From a virus: 29,141 bases of DNA. Shown here one piece after another: positions 16,487-27,899 of this stretch. The position numbers and the translations under genes were made by a program. Location of the stretch: IMG/VR virus record IMGVR_UViG_3300025070_000162, positions 1-29,141 of that record. One strand, given 5' to 3'. How positions within the stretch are numbered: position 1 is the first letter of the stretch; the number at the start of each line of letters is the position of its first letter. Below the pieces are notes generated by a model. That model searched no databases. It was not told the origin of the DNA and saw only the letters and a list, made by a program, of their open reading frames with translations.

Positions 16487-16849
16487 TCAACACCTCATAG
16501 GAATGTTAGTTTCAATAATTTGTTTTACTTGATCTAAACATTCGGTCAGACCCCCCTTGACTACAAAATGAGGTGTACCTAATCCTTTAGATTGTACTGC
16601 CCACAACTTTTGATTTTCGGATAATCTACCCTTTTCGTTTTTAAGTTCGATATAAAGAATTTTACCCATAGGATATTCAACAATTATATCTGGACAGCCA
16701 GATTTCAAACCCATTTTTTTCATTTGAGCATGAAGATAAATAGACCTTTTACCCTCATTTGGAACATGAAAATGTCTGAAATAGTAGGTATTGGCTAAGA
16801 TGTTTAGTAGCTGATTACAAGCTATTTGTATGGCTGATTCTTTAGTCAT
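16487..16849 (-). CDS. VRR-NUC domain nuclease
   Basis: Encodes 120 residues on the minus strand, the only leftward gene here. The VRR-NUC (PD-(D/E)XK-type) pattern is clear: Glu4 with Ile-Gln in the first helix, His28-Val-Pro-Asn-Glu-Gly-Lys-Arg, then Gly51-x-Pro53-Asp54, and Glu68-x-Lys70 with Gly74-x-Leu-Ser-x-x-Gln80-x-x-Trp. These residues bind metal and cut DNA; in characterised members they act on branched or flapped DNA. In phages of this size such a stand-alone domain may resolve replication or packaging intermediates. It reads toward the end of the late genes with 9 nt between stop codons, and its start faces the control region at 16.85-17.1 kb. No strong Shine-Dalgarno is seen. Confidence 0.85.
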   Translation of the reverse strand: MTKESAIQIACNQLLNILANTYYFRHFHVPNEGKRSIYLHAQMKKMGLKSGCPDIIVEYPMGKILYIELKNEKGRLSENQKLWAVQSKGLGTPHFVVKGGLTECLDQVKQIIETNIPMRC

Positions 16850-22298: not shown

Positions 22299-22328
22299 AA
22301 CCCCTTTAGGTTTATGCTTAGAGGGGTT
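22299..22328. terminator. Stable 12-bp hairpin between nuclease and initiator genes
   Basis: 22299-22310 pairs with 22317-22328 (two G-U pairs) around a 6-nt loop TTTATG. No T tract follows on the plus strand; instead A-rich sequence precedes it, so on the minus strand the hairpin is followed by TTTTTTGGTTTTT. It is therefore a good intrinsic terminator for leftward or antisense transcripts, and may act as a pause, attenuator or mRNA 3'-end protector for rightward ones. Confidence 0.65.
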
Positions 22329-22358: not shown

Positions 22359-23240
22359 ATGTTTATAGACGAAAATTCAAAACCAAGAGAGAAATTAAAA
22401 GCATGGTATCTTTTCACAGAAGATTTTATTGCAGGTACTCAAGCCTTAACAAATGAGGAAATAGGCATATATATCAGATTACTTTGTTATAACTGGAACA
22501 AAAGATGTTCTGGAATACCTAGTGAGCCTTTAAAATATCAAAGAATAGCAAATTGTATTTCAGATAGCGAGAAAGAAAGCTGTGAAACAGTTCTTAAAGA
22601 TTTCTTTGTTTTAGTTAACAATCATTTTCAAAATGAAAGACAGTTACAAGAGTATCTATTTATAACAAGAAGAATGGAAGCATCTAAGGAAAATGGCAAG
22701 TTAGGTGGTAGACCAAAAAAACCTAGCATAGAACCTAGAGTAGAACCTAAAGGTAACCTAGACGAAACCCCTCCTACCCCTACCACTACCCCTACCACTA
22801 CTAAAACCACTAAAATAAGTTATAATCCTTTTTTTAAGAAGTTTTGGGATAAGGTTTCTAATAAAGTGAGTAAGGGAATAGCTGAAAAGAATTTTATCAA
22901 GCTAGAACCTGAGTGGATAGAAAAACCAGAAGAACTAGCAGATATGTATAATAAATATTATAATTCTGTTGAGGATAAGCAATTTGCCAAACAACCTGCT
23001 TTCTGGTTATCAGCTAAAAAGTATGAAGATGAAAAACCAACTAAACAAATTGAAGAAAAACTTCAGCCATATGATATGAGGTTAAAAATGTTTTTAGATG
23101 CTGTGCAAAAGAAGCAAGGTAGTGCATTTATACACAAATATGCAAAACAACATCCCTATGACGTTCAAAGAGCAATTAATGAGGGTGTGTTTAGTAGAGA
23201 AGATGCAATTAAATATTTAGATATGGGGAGTTGGATATGA
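22359..23240 (+). CDS. Replication initiator-like protein (DUF1376 N-terminal domain)
   Basis: Encodes 293 residues. ATG 22359 is chosen because TTGGAGATCA just before it is the leader motif; a TTG at 22347 lies inside the motif. Residues about 14-115 carry the DUF1376 pattern: Ala-Trp-Tyr-Leu-Phe, Asp-Phe, Leu-Thr-Asn-Glu-Glu-Ile-Gly-Ile-Tyr-Ile-Arg-Leu-Leu, and Gly-Gly-Arg-Pro-Lys-Lys ending it. A Pro/Thr-rich linker (about 120-155) precedes a C-terminal helical region (Phe-Phe-Lys-Lys-Phe-Trp-Asp-Lys-Val; Ala-Phe-Trp-Leu-Ser-Ala-Lys-Lys-Tyr) typical of phage O/DnaT-like replication proteins. It likely recognises the origin and loads host helicase. The linker DNA holds tandem repeats. ATGA overlap with the Mom-like gene. 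Confidence 0.75.
   Translation: MFIDENSKPREKLKAWYLFTEDFIAGTQALTNEEIGIYIRLLCYNWNKRCSGIPSEPLKYQRIANCISDSEKESCETVLKDFFVLVNNHFQNERQLQEYLFITRRMEASKENGKLGGRPKKPSIEPRVEPKGNLDETPPTPTTTPTTTKTTKISYNPFFKKFWDKVSNKVSKGIAEKNFIKLEPEWIEKPEELADMYNKYYNSVEDKQFAKQPAFWLSAKKYEDEKPTKQIEEKLQPYDMRLKMFLDAVQKKQGSAFIHKYAKQHPYDVQRAINEGVFSREDAIKYLDMGSWI
22720..22800 (+). repeat. Tandem 11-12 bp repeats in the initiator gene, candidate replication origin
   Basis: ACCTA occurs at 22721, 22733, 22745 and 22756, i.e. with periods 12, 12 and 11; three of the copies are AACCTAG. It is followed by an exact tandem duplication of the 12-mer CCCCTACCACTA (22777-22788, 22789-22800), then by an AT-rich stretch. In lambda the origin iterons lie within gene O in its linker-coding part, so this arrangement in an initiator gene suggests an origin. 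Low-complexity coding of a Pro/Thr linker is the alternative. Confidence 0.5.
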
Positions 23241-23887
23241 AAAACTTAAATGTCATTCAAATTAAAGCTGAAGAAACTCACGATTGGTTTAAGAATAGGC
23301 ATTACGCTAAAACATTACCTAAATGCACAAGTTATGCTTTTGGATTATATGATGGAGCATATTTAATTGGGGTTGTTTCTTATGGAGACCCAACTGGAAG
23401 AACAGTTTTAGAAGCTATGACTTCAAAAGAATATATACACCCTATATTAGAATTAAATAGACTTTGTTTATTAGAAAATAAAAAGAATTATGCTTCTTTT
23501 TTAATAGGCAATAGTCTTAAATTATTACCAAAACCTAATATAATCATTTCATATGCAGATAAATCAATAAATCATGCAGGGTATATTTATCAAGCAACAA
23601 ATTTTATTTATTGTGGATTATCAGAAAAAAGAACAGATTGGATAATGAAAGGTATTAACAAACACCCTAGAGGGGTAAAGCCAACAGAAGAAATGAAAAA
23701 AGATAAATCTAAATTTGAATTAATAGAAAGAGCAAGAAAGCATAGATACATTTATTATTTGGGAAATAAAAAACAAAAAAAACAATTTATGGAAAATTTT
23801 AAATATGAAATATTACCATATCCAAAGACAGAAAATAAGTATTATGAAACAACTTTTGTGCCAAATACACAAATGGCATTGATTTAG
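23237..23887 (+). CDS. Mom-family adenine modification protein
   Basis: Encodes 216 residues from ATG 23237, which overlaps the initiator stop (ATGA) and has GGGGAG upstream. It shows the GNAT-like Mom pattern: His-Tyr-Ala-Lys-Thr-Leu-Pro, Phe-Gly-Leu-Tyr-Asp, Ile-Gly-Val-Val-Ser-Tyr-Gly-Asp-Pro-Thr-Gly, Glu-Leu-Asn-Arg-Leu-Cys-Leu, and Ser105-Tyr-Ala-Asp-x-x-x-x-His113-x-Gly-x-Ile-Tyr-Gln-Ala-Thr-Asn-Phe-x-Tyr125. Mu Mom converts adenine in DNA to N6-methylcarbamoyl-adenine and so hides DNA from restriction enzymes. Here the gene lies in the replication module, not beside a Com-like regulator. A Lys-rich C-terminus may aid DNA contact. Catalytic activity is inferred from the family. Confidence 0.75.
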   Translation: MKNLNVIQIKAEETHDWFKNRHYAKTLPKCTSYAFGLYDGAYLIGVVSYGDPTGRTVLEAMTSKEYIHPILELNRLCLLENKKNYASFLIGNSLKLLPKPNIIISYADKSINHAGYIYQATNFIYCGLSEKRTDWIMKGINKHPRGVKPTEEMKKDKSKFELIERARKHRYIYYLGNKKQKKQFMENFKYEILPYPKTENKYYETTFVPNTQMALI

Positions 23888-23896
23888 GAGATTAAT

Positions 23897-24094
23897 ATGA
23901 CTGTAATAGATATTAGAAATCCATTAGAAAAGAAAAGGCAAACGTATTTAGCTTTTTACAAAGATGGAATTTATGATGGCATATTAAATCAAAAGCCAGA
24001 CCCTAGAAATAATTCATCAGCTTATTATAAAAAAGGTTTTGATGATGGTTTAAAATTGTTAGAGTTAATTAAAGAATATAATCTTGGAGATTAA
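23897..24094 (+). CDS. Small hypothetical protein (65 aa)
   Basis: Encodes 65 residues; AGGAGATTAAT provides the Shine-Dalgarno. Two similar short segments are visible: Phe-Tyr-Lys-Asp-Gly-Ile-Tyr-Asp-Gly and Tyr-Lys-Lys-Gly-Phe-Asp-Asp-Gly, each an aromatic-Lys-Gly/Asp-Gly helix, which looks like an internal repeat of a small folded domain. It follows the Mom-like gene by 9 nt and may share its transcript. Function unknown. Confidence 0.55.
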   Translation: MTVIDIRNPLEKKRQTYLAFYKDGIYDGILNQKPDPRNNSSAYYKKGFDDGLKLLELIKEYNLGD

Positions 24095-24096
24095 AA

Positions 24097-24393
24097 ATGT
24101 ATGTAAATAGCGAAGTCAAAAATAGTTATTATGGTTTAAAAAAGGTTTTTAGAGATTTTAAAAATAAAAACAAACGACTTAAAACAGATGATGAGGGTAA
24201 ATTTGAAGATGTACCCAAAGAACTATCAGATAAAGACAAAGAGGGTTCTTATAAGTTTATTGGTTATATGGATTACTATTTAGGTGTTAAGTTCGACCAA
24301 GATAAAGATTTAGAAGTGCAACCATCTGGAGTTACTGCTAAAAATAGAAATTACGATTATGCCAATGCAAAGTTTGTAGGGAGTTTAGACTAA
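24097..24393 (+). CDS. Charged hypothetical protein (98 aa)
   Basis: Encodes 98 residues. A TTGGAGATT variant of the leader motif precedes ATG 24097. The first half is Lys/Asp/Glu-rich, the second half has Tyr-Lys-Phe-Ile-Gly-Tyr-Met-Asp-Tyr-Tyr-Leu-Gly-Val-Lys and Asn-Arg-Asn-Tyr-Asp-Tyr-Ala-Asn-Ala. It is the last gene of the early/middle run; its stop codon forms the base of the large hairpin upstream of terminase. No family recognised. Confidence 0.55.
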   Translation: MYVNSEVKNSYYGLKKVFRDFKNKNKRLKTDDEGKFEDVPKELSDKDKEGSYKFIGYMDYYLGVKFDQDKDLEVQPSGVTAKNRNYDYANAKFVGSLD

Positions 24394-24451
24394 TTTAAGA
24401 GGTGCAATCATACCATAGGGTTAGTTAACCCCTGCTCTATGGCTCTTAAAT
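24393..24451. promoter_or_regulatory. Large nested hairpin upstream of the small terminase gene
   Basis: Outer arms ATTTAAGAG (24393-24401) and CTCTTAAAT (24443-24451) pair perfectly over 9 bp; a second perfect 6-bp stem CCATAG/CTATGG (24413-24418 with 24437-24442) is stacked on the right arm, and an inner GGTT/AACC closes a loop AGTT. An 11-nt bulge lies on the left side. The rest of the 148-nt gap up to 24541 is AT-rich with no gene, tRNA or clear promoter. It may be a transcript end, a processing site, or part of a cos/pac site, given its place before terminase. No T tract follows. Confidence 0.55.
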
Positions 24452-24541
24452 CAAGCCTAAAATGTATAAAATATAAAAATATGTAGCTTTTTTAAAAATA
24501 ATTATATAAATCTTAATTACCTAACTATGGGGTAAATAGGA

Positions 24542-24847
24542 ATGGCAAGACCAAAAAAATATAATATCGATACTGAACAATTAAGTAAATTAGCTAAATT
24601 GGGTTGTACTAATAAAGAAATGGGTGACTTTTTCGGTTGTTCAGCAGACCTATTAGAAAAGAGTTATTCGGAATTTCTGATAAAAGGTAGGGCAGAACAA
24701 AAAATGAGGTTAAGACAACTTCAATGGAAAGCTTGTGAAAGTGGAAATGTTACTATGTTAATATTCTTAGGAAAGAATATGTTGGGTCAGCAAGATAAGA
24801 TAGAGCAAAATGAATTAGAAGAACCTTTAGTCTGGTCATCAGATTAA
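24542..24847 (+). CDS. terS: Terminase small subunit
   Basis: Encodes 101 residues. The start is Ala-Arg-Pro-Lys-Lys-Tyr, then a helix-turn-helix (Leu-Ala-Lys-Leu-Gly-Cys-Thr-Asn-Lys-Glu-Met-Gly-Asp-Phe-Phe-Gly-Cys-Ser) typical of small terminases, a central helical region for oligomer formation, and Met-Leu-Ile-Phe-Leu-Gly-Lys-Asn-Met-Leu-Gly-Gln near residue 75-86, a recurring motif in this family. It binds the packaging site and recruits the large subunit. TAATG couples it to the large subunit gene. The structured element upstream may be its binding site. Confidence 0.82.
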   Translation: MARPKKYNIDTEQLSKLAKLGCTNKEMGDFFGCSADLLEKSYSEFLIKGRAEQKMRLRQLQWKACESGNVTMLIFLGKNMLGQQDKIEQNELEEPLVWSSD

Positions 24848-26064
24848 TGGCATTAACCAAACCTCAAAAGAAAGTAATAAGTAACGAAGCAAGGTTTAGG
24901 GTTCTTATTACTGGTAGGCGATTTGGTAAAACATTCCTAGCGATTAATGAATTAGCTAAGTTTGCCAGTAAGCCTAATCAAAGAGTTTGGTATGTTGCAC
25001 CAACTTATAGACAAGCTAAAGCCATATGTTGGAATGTATTAAAAGAAAAAATGATATATCACAAATGGGTTAAGAATATAAACCATAGTGATTTAACAAT
25101 TACATTAAAAAACAATAGCCAGATAACACTAAGAGGTAGTGATAATGAGCAATCATTAAGAGGTGTTGGTTTGAATTTCTTATGTATTGATGAGTTTGCA
25201 GATGTAAGCCAAGAAGCATGGTATGAGGTTTTAAGACCTACATTATCAGATACAAAAGGTCATGCTCTATTCTGTGGAAGTCCAAGAGGGTTTGGTAACT
25301 GGTCATATGAACTATTTAAGCAAGGTGAAACCAATAAAGACTGGGCAAGTTTTAAATATACTACTATTGAGGGTGGTAATGTAGATAAAGACGAAGTAGA
25401 GCAAGCAAAACAAGATTTAGATATAAGAACATTTCAGCAGGAATATGAAGCCACATTTGTTAATTATTCTGGAATGATTTATTACAACTTTAATAGACAA
25501 AATAATATTATTGAAAAATACCAGAAAGAAACAGCAATTTTACACATAGGTTTAGACTTTAACGTAGACCCTATGAGTGCTGTAGTTTGTATTATAGTTA
25601 ATGAGAAAATTATAGTTGTTGATGAGATACAAATATATTCGTCAAATACCCAAGAAATGTGTGATGAAATAAAGAATAGATACAAAAATAAACAGATAGT
25701 TGTTTATCCAGACCCTAGTGCTAGACAAAGAAAAACATCAGCAGGTGGATTTACTGATTTAAGTATCTTGAAAAATGCAGGATTTGATGTAAAATGTAAA
25801 AATACAGCACCTTTAATTAGGGATAGAATTAATGCAGTTAATGCAAAATTAAAAAATGTTAATGGGAAAAATAGTCTGTTTATTGTTAAATCTTGCAAAA
25901 ATGTTATTAAAAGCATAGAACGACAAATATACAAAGAGGGAACTCATGTACCTGATAAAGATAGTGGGTATGACCATATGAATGATGCTCTTGGCTATTT
26001 AATAGAGTTTAATTTCCCACTAAGACGTAATTTTGCACCTAGCCAACCTAAGAGGTGGAGTTAA
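24847..26064 (+). CDS. terL: Terminase large subunit
   Basis: Encodes 405 residues. The ATPase half has the Walker A Gly23-Arg-Arg-Phe-Gly-Lys28-Thr, an adenine-binding Tyr-Val-Ala-Pro-Thr-Tyr-Arg-Gln, Walker B Leu112-Cys-Ile-Asp115-Glu116-Phe, and a coupling motif Leu-Phe-Cys-Gly-Ser-Pro-Arg-Gly. The nuclease half has Asp237 in Gly-Leu-Asp-Phe-Asn, Tyr-Pro-Asp-Pro-Ser-Ala, and Tyr-Asp376-His-Met-Asn-Asp380, the acidic metal ligands. It powers and cuts genome packaging through the portal. Length is at the short end for this family. TAATG overlap with the portal gene. Confidence 0.93.
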   Translation: MALTKPQKKVISNEARFRVLITGRRFGKTFLAINELAKFASKPNQRVWYVAPTYRQAKAICWNVLKEKMIYHKWVKNINHSDLTITLKNNSQITLRGSDNEQSLRGVGLNFLCIDEFADVSQEAWYEVLRPTLSDTKGHALFCGSPRGFGNWSYELFKQGETNKDWASFKYTTIEGGNVDKDEVEQAKQDLDIRTFQQEYEATFVNYSGMIYYNFNRQNNIIEKYQKETAILHIGLDFNVDPMSAVVCIIVNEKIIVVDEIQIYSSNTQEMCDEIKNRYKNKQIVVYPDPSARQRKTSAGGFTDLSILKNAGFDVKCKNTAPLIRDRINAVNAKLKNVNGKNSLFIVKSCKNVIKSIERQIYKEGTHVPDKDSGYDHMNDALGYLIEFNFPLRRNFAPSQPKRWS

Positions 26065-27636: not shown

Positions 27637-27899
27637 TGGCAGTAAAAAGAAAACCTTTATCAGCAAGAACTATTGCAACACTTAGAGCAAAAGCCAAAAA
27701 ATCTAAGTTATTTAATTTAGCAGATTTAAAGGCTAGTTTTCGTAGAGGTCAAGGTGCATTTCTTTCATCAGGGAGCAGACCTAGAATACCAATGTCAGCA
27801 TGGGCAATGGCAAGAGTAAACAAGCTAATTAGTCGTGGCAGGTCAGGAACATTTGATAAAGATATAATATCAAGAGCCAGTAAACGTAAAAGAAAATGA
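27636..27899 (+). CDS. Small basic protein, DUF5824-like
   Basis: Encodes 87 residues, highly basic. The segment Leu-Lys-Ala-Ser-Phe-Arg-Arg-Gly-Gln-Gly-Ala-Phe-Leu-Ser-Ser-Gly-Ser-Arg-Pro with Trp-Ala-Met-Ala-Arg-Val-Asn-Lys-Leu following resembles the core of a small DUF5824-type domain seen in phage and virus genomes. A polybasic tail (Ser-Lys-Arg-Lys-Arg-Lys) follows. It probably binds nucleic acid or helps head assembly, inferred from charge and place after the portal. TAATG overlap upstream. Confidence 0.55.
   Translation: MAVKRKPLSARTIATLRAKAKKSKLFNLADLKASFRRGQGAFLSSGSRPRIPMSAWAMARVNKLISRGRSGTFDKDIISRASKRKRK

Follow-up and report, generated by a model that had tools for sequence, protein, structure and literature searches.

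The window, that is, the whole stretch of 29,141 b that was analysed, is an IMG/VR record classed as linear, with a GC content of 32%, and the reading of it as a compact phage is plausible. The genes and features of the locus are listed below.

22359 to 23240, plus strand: DUF1376/primosomal-type replication initiator (Pfam, PHROG), the conserved left flank of the slot
23225 to 23230, plus strand: GGGGAG, Shine-Dalgarno-like, 6 nt before the mom ATG
23237 to 23240, plus strand: ATGA stop/start overlap of initiator and mom, read from the sequence
23237 to 23887, plus strand: mom-like ORF, 216 aa from ATG, predicted GNAT-fold DNA-modification enzyme, the cargo in the window
23241 to 24541, plus strand: variable DNA-modification exchange slot, between the initiator and the terminase small subunit
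23495 to 23497, plus strand: Ser87 codon, equivalent by alignments to Mu Ser114 (231-aa numbering)
23897 to 24094, plus strand: 65-aa ORF, slot member, with a homologue in 5 of 12 contigs
24097 to 24393, plus strand: 98-aa ORF, slot member, with a homologue in 7 of 12 contigs
24542 to 24847, plus strand: terminase small subunit-like gene (phrog_309, 3.7e-6), the conserved right flank of the slot
24847 to 26064, plus strand: terminase large subunit, 57% identical to that of pelagiphage HTVC202P

The initiator matched Pfam PF07120 (DUF1376, 2.4e-10), phrog_9327 (primosomal, 3.1e-24) and phrog_270 (replication initiation, 1.3e-10), and it is preceded by a PD-(D/E)XK nuclease-like gene. In the gap before the initiator there is a strong, perfect hairpin at 22299-22328 (about -20 kcal/mol, CCCCTTTAGG...AGAGGGG, without a T run), possibly a regulatory element or terminator. 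One minus-strand ORF (16487-16849, 120 aa), in a genome otherwise on the plus strand, looked by eye like a VRR-NUC nuclease, and similar ORFs were seen in about 13 related records. At the terminase end, the four best cultured-phage large terminases were those of HTVC202P, HTVC026P, HTVC111P and HTVC112P (55.9-57.0% identity over 100%), all of them Pelagibacter phages, so that the window shows the kinship with HTVC111P/112P/202P-like siphophages. Considering that these nearest large terminases come from cultured Pelagibacter phages, a SAR11-type host is likely, judging from kinship.

The original prediction had assigned the protein to the Mom family by its motifs, and both SYAD (105-108) and HAGYIYQATN (113-122) are present in it. 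Pfam, PHROGs, the PDB and a Foldseek search with a predicted model all agree with this assignment. Pfam PF25680 (Mom) was matched with an E value of 2.7e-37 and 128.9 bits (cut-off 27.1), over residues 4-197 of the protein and positions 2-202 of the 202 in the profile; phrog_1384, the 'Mom-like DNA modification protein' group in which Mu Mom also falls, gave 1.6e-55; and the PDB sequence search returned 8bv8 (Mu Mom, 1.7e-10) as the only match at E <= 10. The AlphaFold model, built from eight viral homologues, had a mean pLDDT of 73.9 and a pTM of 0.73, and with it Foldseek found 8bv8 with an E value of 7e-11 and a TM of 0.62-0.66, the next GNATs appearing only from E 1e-3. We also looked for a better match to an unrelated GNAT family, but Mu Mom was far better, and such an identity is ruled out by Pfam, the PDB sequence search and the structure match.

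An alignment was made of 19 Mom proteins from phages that differ widely. In it, the columns of H48, Y49, E98, S114, D139 and Y149 of Mu were invariant and that of R101 was conserved in 18 of the 19; the window protein keeps all seven. In Mu Mom, H48, Y49, R101, D139 and Y149 are functional residues. Structure 8bv8, which is titled 'inactive mutant S124A', has an Ala opposite S87 of the window protein, where wild-type Mu has Ser; a residue that bears an inactivity label in structural biology is therefore kept in the window. On each feature tested, whether profile, fold or active-site residues, the protein is a Mom, and it is practically certain that the gene is a new member of this known family, with closest annotated relatives that are 38-41% identical over 94%. 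Mu Mom has been reported to bind a CoA thioester and iron, with acetyl-CoA and a methylcarbamoyl/glycinamide-type adduct on adenine. A DNA-modifying role of the window protein is probable.

It had also been proposed that mom is coupled to a replication gene by ATGA, with no Com-like gene in sight, and both observations hold. The ATG of mom (23237-23239) overlaps the TGA of the initiator (23238-23240), whose DUF1376 and primosomal matches are those of a replication-type gene, and no Com-like ORF was found at E <= 10 in the six frames of the window. Two CxxC motifs each were present in three small ORFs, of which one is of HNH type, another lies at 27868 and the third is on the minus strand; these were considered as Com candidates and rejected, none of them being Com-like. 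The window thus lacks the Com translational activator that overlaps mom in the Mu-type operon, and it also lacks the RNA structure that hides the mom start there: the start region was predicted to be unstructured (-6.7 kcal/mol, z +0.78), while that of Mu gave -17.4 kcal/mol and a z of -1.25. The two Moms share the family, the GNAT fold, the seven columns and the position of the inactivating Ser. Mu mom, however, is expressed late and lies next to tail genes, whereas the window gene is coupled to a replication initiator within the exchange slot.

The position of Mom outside the com-mom operon and the late region is already known. Homologues were found at E <= 1e-3 in 306 annotated phage records, many of them already named Mom-like. 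In BarnCat a Com-less Mom has an HTH gene on one side and DNA polymerase I on the other, in phiSHEF2 another one follows the DNA polymerase, and the phages vB_EauM-23 (Exiguobacterium) and P12002L (Polaribacter) carry Com-less Moms in early regions. A Com-less Mom on the replication side is ordinary, since it is common in known phages. The Com-less Moms of Listeria, Bacillus, Acinetobacter, Proteus and Exiguobacterium phages (phrog_1384) are on the same branch of the Mom tree as that of the window, but their neighbours differ from those found here. To our knowledge, the products of the Listeria/Bacillus-type enzymes have not been studied. A survey of jumbo phages had earlier recorded Mom enzymes in phages and bacteria (PMC7824862).

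We then compared the region between the initiator and the terminase in viral contigs retrieved through relatives of the DUF1376 gene; these belong to related marine phages, akin to pelagiphages HTVC111P and HTVC112P. After duplicate removal there were 84 distinct complete initiator-to-terminase slots, which are to be taken as non-independent samples. Cargo types were named on representatives by Pfam and PHROGs, and since the slot proteins were clustered by BLAST and each cluster labelled by its representative, single assignments in the following counts may be wrong. A modification-type gene was present in 46 of the 84 slots, and the 38 with no recognised one hold small unknown ORFs. Mom was found in 8 slots, in four of them alone, in three after a ParB-like gene and in one as two Moms. 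ParB-N6/N4 methylase fusions occupied 14 slots (one also with a Dam-like methylase), and a ParB-like gene with a TET-associated glycosyltransferase (TAGT) occupied 10, one of which had a Tet_JBP dioxygenase and two a Dam-like methylase. The Dam-like methylase of phrog_799, alone or with a PAPS-reductase-like gene, was present in 7 slots and the PAPS-reductase-like gene alone in 2; a C5 methylase was seen in 2, and an MT-A70, a Tet_JBP with an FkbM methyltransferase and a queuosine-type transporter with a DpdA-like gene in one each. Genes for ADDT, a glutamine amidotransferase and a GNAT were seen in a further slot, which is longer and incomplete. The roles of the PAPS-reductase-like, ParB-like, radical-SAM and FkbM members as DNA modifiers are putative here, and the DpdA/transporter pairs could act on RNA instead. 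In one relative (L039, the same as L002, 4401-6561) the slot holds two Mom genes, the second of which encodes 307 aa, with about 90 aa inserted where the core passes into the C-terminal part.

The initiator ended in ATGA in 40 of the 84 slots, across cargos, the remaining 44 having mostly ATAA or TTAA. The coupling is therefore common but neither universal nor special to Mom, and the idea that expression tied to replication is a feature of the Mom gene was dropped, since other cargos share it.

The flanks of the slot are conserved while its content changes. Among 12 long related contigs the genes on both sides were present in all 12, with homologues of the initiator and of both terminase subunits in each, and mom in only one; gene content thus drops to 1/12 within the slot from 12/12 on either side. 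Between the last ORF of the slot and the terminase small subunit there is a structured intergenic stretch (24394-24541), which ends in ACCTAACTATGGGGTA directly before the latter gene. This end block recurs in many slots whatever their cargo, and it marks the right boundary of the slot.

We considered whether the slot might take up early accessory genes in general, with modification genes frequent there only as common phage morons. The 38 slots with small unknown ORFs and no recognised modification gene agree with this, and so do four records that carry an MT-A70 gene elsewhere. In 40 longer records, the listed families were found in the slot in 27 and elsewhere in 4, although the non-slot sequence compared was 13 times as much (794 kb vs 59 kb of slot). 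All four of the elsewhere cases (G013, G028, G035 and G037) are MT-A70-type methylases, and modification genes are therefore not confined to the slot. In 21 records, the Pfam profiles of N6/N4 methylase, C5 methylase, TAGT and Tet_JBP gave nine matches (2 N6/N4, 5 TAGT, 2 Tet_JBP and no C5), all within the initiator-terminase span. This control supports a preference of these genes for the slot and not exclusivity, because it is biased towards families first seen there. Against a general accessory site, almost every slot ORF of 130 aa or more is of modification type, whereas the non-slot ORFs of at least 110 aa without a window homologue look, by reading of the recognisable ones, structural, nuclease or GNAT-like. 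We regard the general accessory site as improbable, and a locus dedicated to modification, with restriction as its driver, is moderately favoured. Within the latter reading, the chemistries would be Mom acylation, methylation of A and C, TET/TAGT glycosylation, ADDT amino-acid transfer and 7-deazaguanine insertion, all of them putative.

It could also be proposed that the window protein has the Mom fold but another substrate, placing a different acyl group on DNA or acting on RNA or protein, and not a maker of methylcarbamoyl-adenine. The protein is only about 24% identical to Mu Mom, so donor and product could differ, and it groups with the Listeria/Bacillus-type Moms. However, the seven tested active-site columns and the predicted fold are kept, and the position in the slot is shared with DNA-modification enzymes, so that another substrate seems unlikely.

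The cargo turns over repeatedly. On the initiator tree, cargo type required 34 changes, the least possible being 9, and Mom alone required 8, of which at least 6 are forced by well-supported branches; each change could be either a gain or a loss. The Moms of the slots do not form a single clade (p-AU 1e-17). Three of them, those linked to ParB, fall with the Mom of an Arthrobacter phage, while that of the window is with the Listeria/Bacillus type. Mom has entered the slot more than once, from two distant branches of the family. Mosaics were also seen in the closest relatives. Compared with L005, the start of the initiator is 98% identical and mom 88%, and compared with L002, the end of the initiator is 81% identical and mom 95%. 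Judging from these sequences, homologous recombination in the conserved flanks would be the simplest route. That cargo turns over at the exchange locus as described here is held with high confidence. A single moron-type acquisition of an ordinary Com-less Mom beside replication genes, with no special locus, would suit the 306 annotated records and the Moms adjoining DNA polymerase genes or lying in early regions, but it is quite unlikely and largely refuted by the slot comparison, with at least seven other modification-type families at the same position in close relatives and Mom entries from two distant branches.

A protective effect of the cargo was looked for in the avoidance of palindromes. 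In the window, GGCC was seen 0 times for 19.9 expected, GATC 16 times for 78 (about five-fold depleted) and TCGA 13 times for 41; among 222 testable 4-mers no other is as depleted as these three, all of them palindromes. This shows that a strong pressure resembling restriction acts on the lineage. A similar palindrome avoidance was observed through most of the lineage. Among 40 records, the avoidance of hexamer palindromes in those with Mom (O/E 0.68-0.73) was not relaxed in comparison with cargo-free ones (mean 0.74), which gives no sign of a long-standing protection; this is compatible with a Mom that came recently or stays only briefly, or with weak protection. Avoidance was weaker in TAGT/TET records, with a mean O/E of 0.804 vs 0.737 in empty ones (Mann-Whitney p 0.002, uncorrected), but with phylogeny controlled, in 4 independent pairs, the difference was not significant (p 0.6). 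That cytosine-modifying cargo frees GGCC from avoidance was considered and is not claimed: one C5-MTase record, HTVC111P and one record with TET+FkbM agree with it, but GGCC is also unrestrained in HTVC202P, which lacks such cargo, and only partly so in HTVC112P.

Counterparts of the slot are present in cultured pelagiphages. Downstream of its DUF1376 gene, HTVC112P carries ParB-like, Tet_JBP dioxygenase and FkbM methyltransferase genes, and in HTVC111P a DnaD gene and a DNA methyltransferase overlap by 4 nt. The product of HTVC112P gp18 (L102, 4100-5005) is annotated as DnaJ/SNF2, yet by Pfam it is a Tet_JBP dioxygenase (1.1e-29). In the annotation of HTVC026P and HTVC202P there is no such modification gene at the corresponding place.

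Other systems resemble the slot in part. The families of hypermodification cassettes (ParB with TET/JBP and TAGT, ADDT, DpdA) are found at the slot position in sister phages as alternatives to Mom, and none is present in the window itself. In HTVC023P-type pelagiphages, hypermodification partner genes lie near DNA replication genes and have been argued to move between phages (PMC9599517). Like the window lineage, for which the host is inferred, these infect SAR11 and keep hypermodification genes near replication genes, but they are podoviruses with thymidylate synthase and aG/PT-PPlase, and have one chemistry by clade instead of many swapped at one locus. P2-like phages and P4-like satellites carry variable hotspots with exchangeable cargo, which is antiviral defence (PMC9122126), whereas the slot cargo is predominantly nucleic-acid modification. 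We found no description of a single locus with many interchanging DNA chemistries in the literature searched, subscription papers lying mostly outside it.

Taking these results together, we propose, with a probability of roughly 0.8, that the window carries a Mom-family enzyme in an exchange locus that swaps modification cassettes and masks phage DNA. Most likely, the enzyme would bind a CoA thioester and move a small CoA-derived group onto the adenine N6 of the phage DNA, and the modified adenine would mask this DNA from the restriction enzymes of the host. One cassette would replace another by recombination between the conserved flanks, and the incoming one would land in the putative transcription unit of the initiator, often at an ATGA start. 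Being in that unit, the enzyme would be made during the copying of phage DNA, with no need of a Com-type switch. Through the ATGA, translation of mom would follow that of the initiator; mom would also have a strong ribosome-binding site of its own, and modification could thus begin as DNA is made.

The Mom gene is one more member of a known family, and the exchange locus is the weightier result. It is somewhat probable that the lineage keeps an initiator-coupled locus that swaps chemistries, with a disguise that turns over faster than the core genes under restriction by the host. The cultured SAR11 phages HTVC112P and HTVC111P allow direct tests of the predictions for such a locus. With one position and many DNA chemistries in similar phages, a comparative set is available to ask which restriction systems are overcome by which modification, and new modification enzymes may be found by reading the cargo between the DUF1376/DnaD gene and the terminase.
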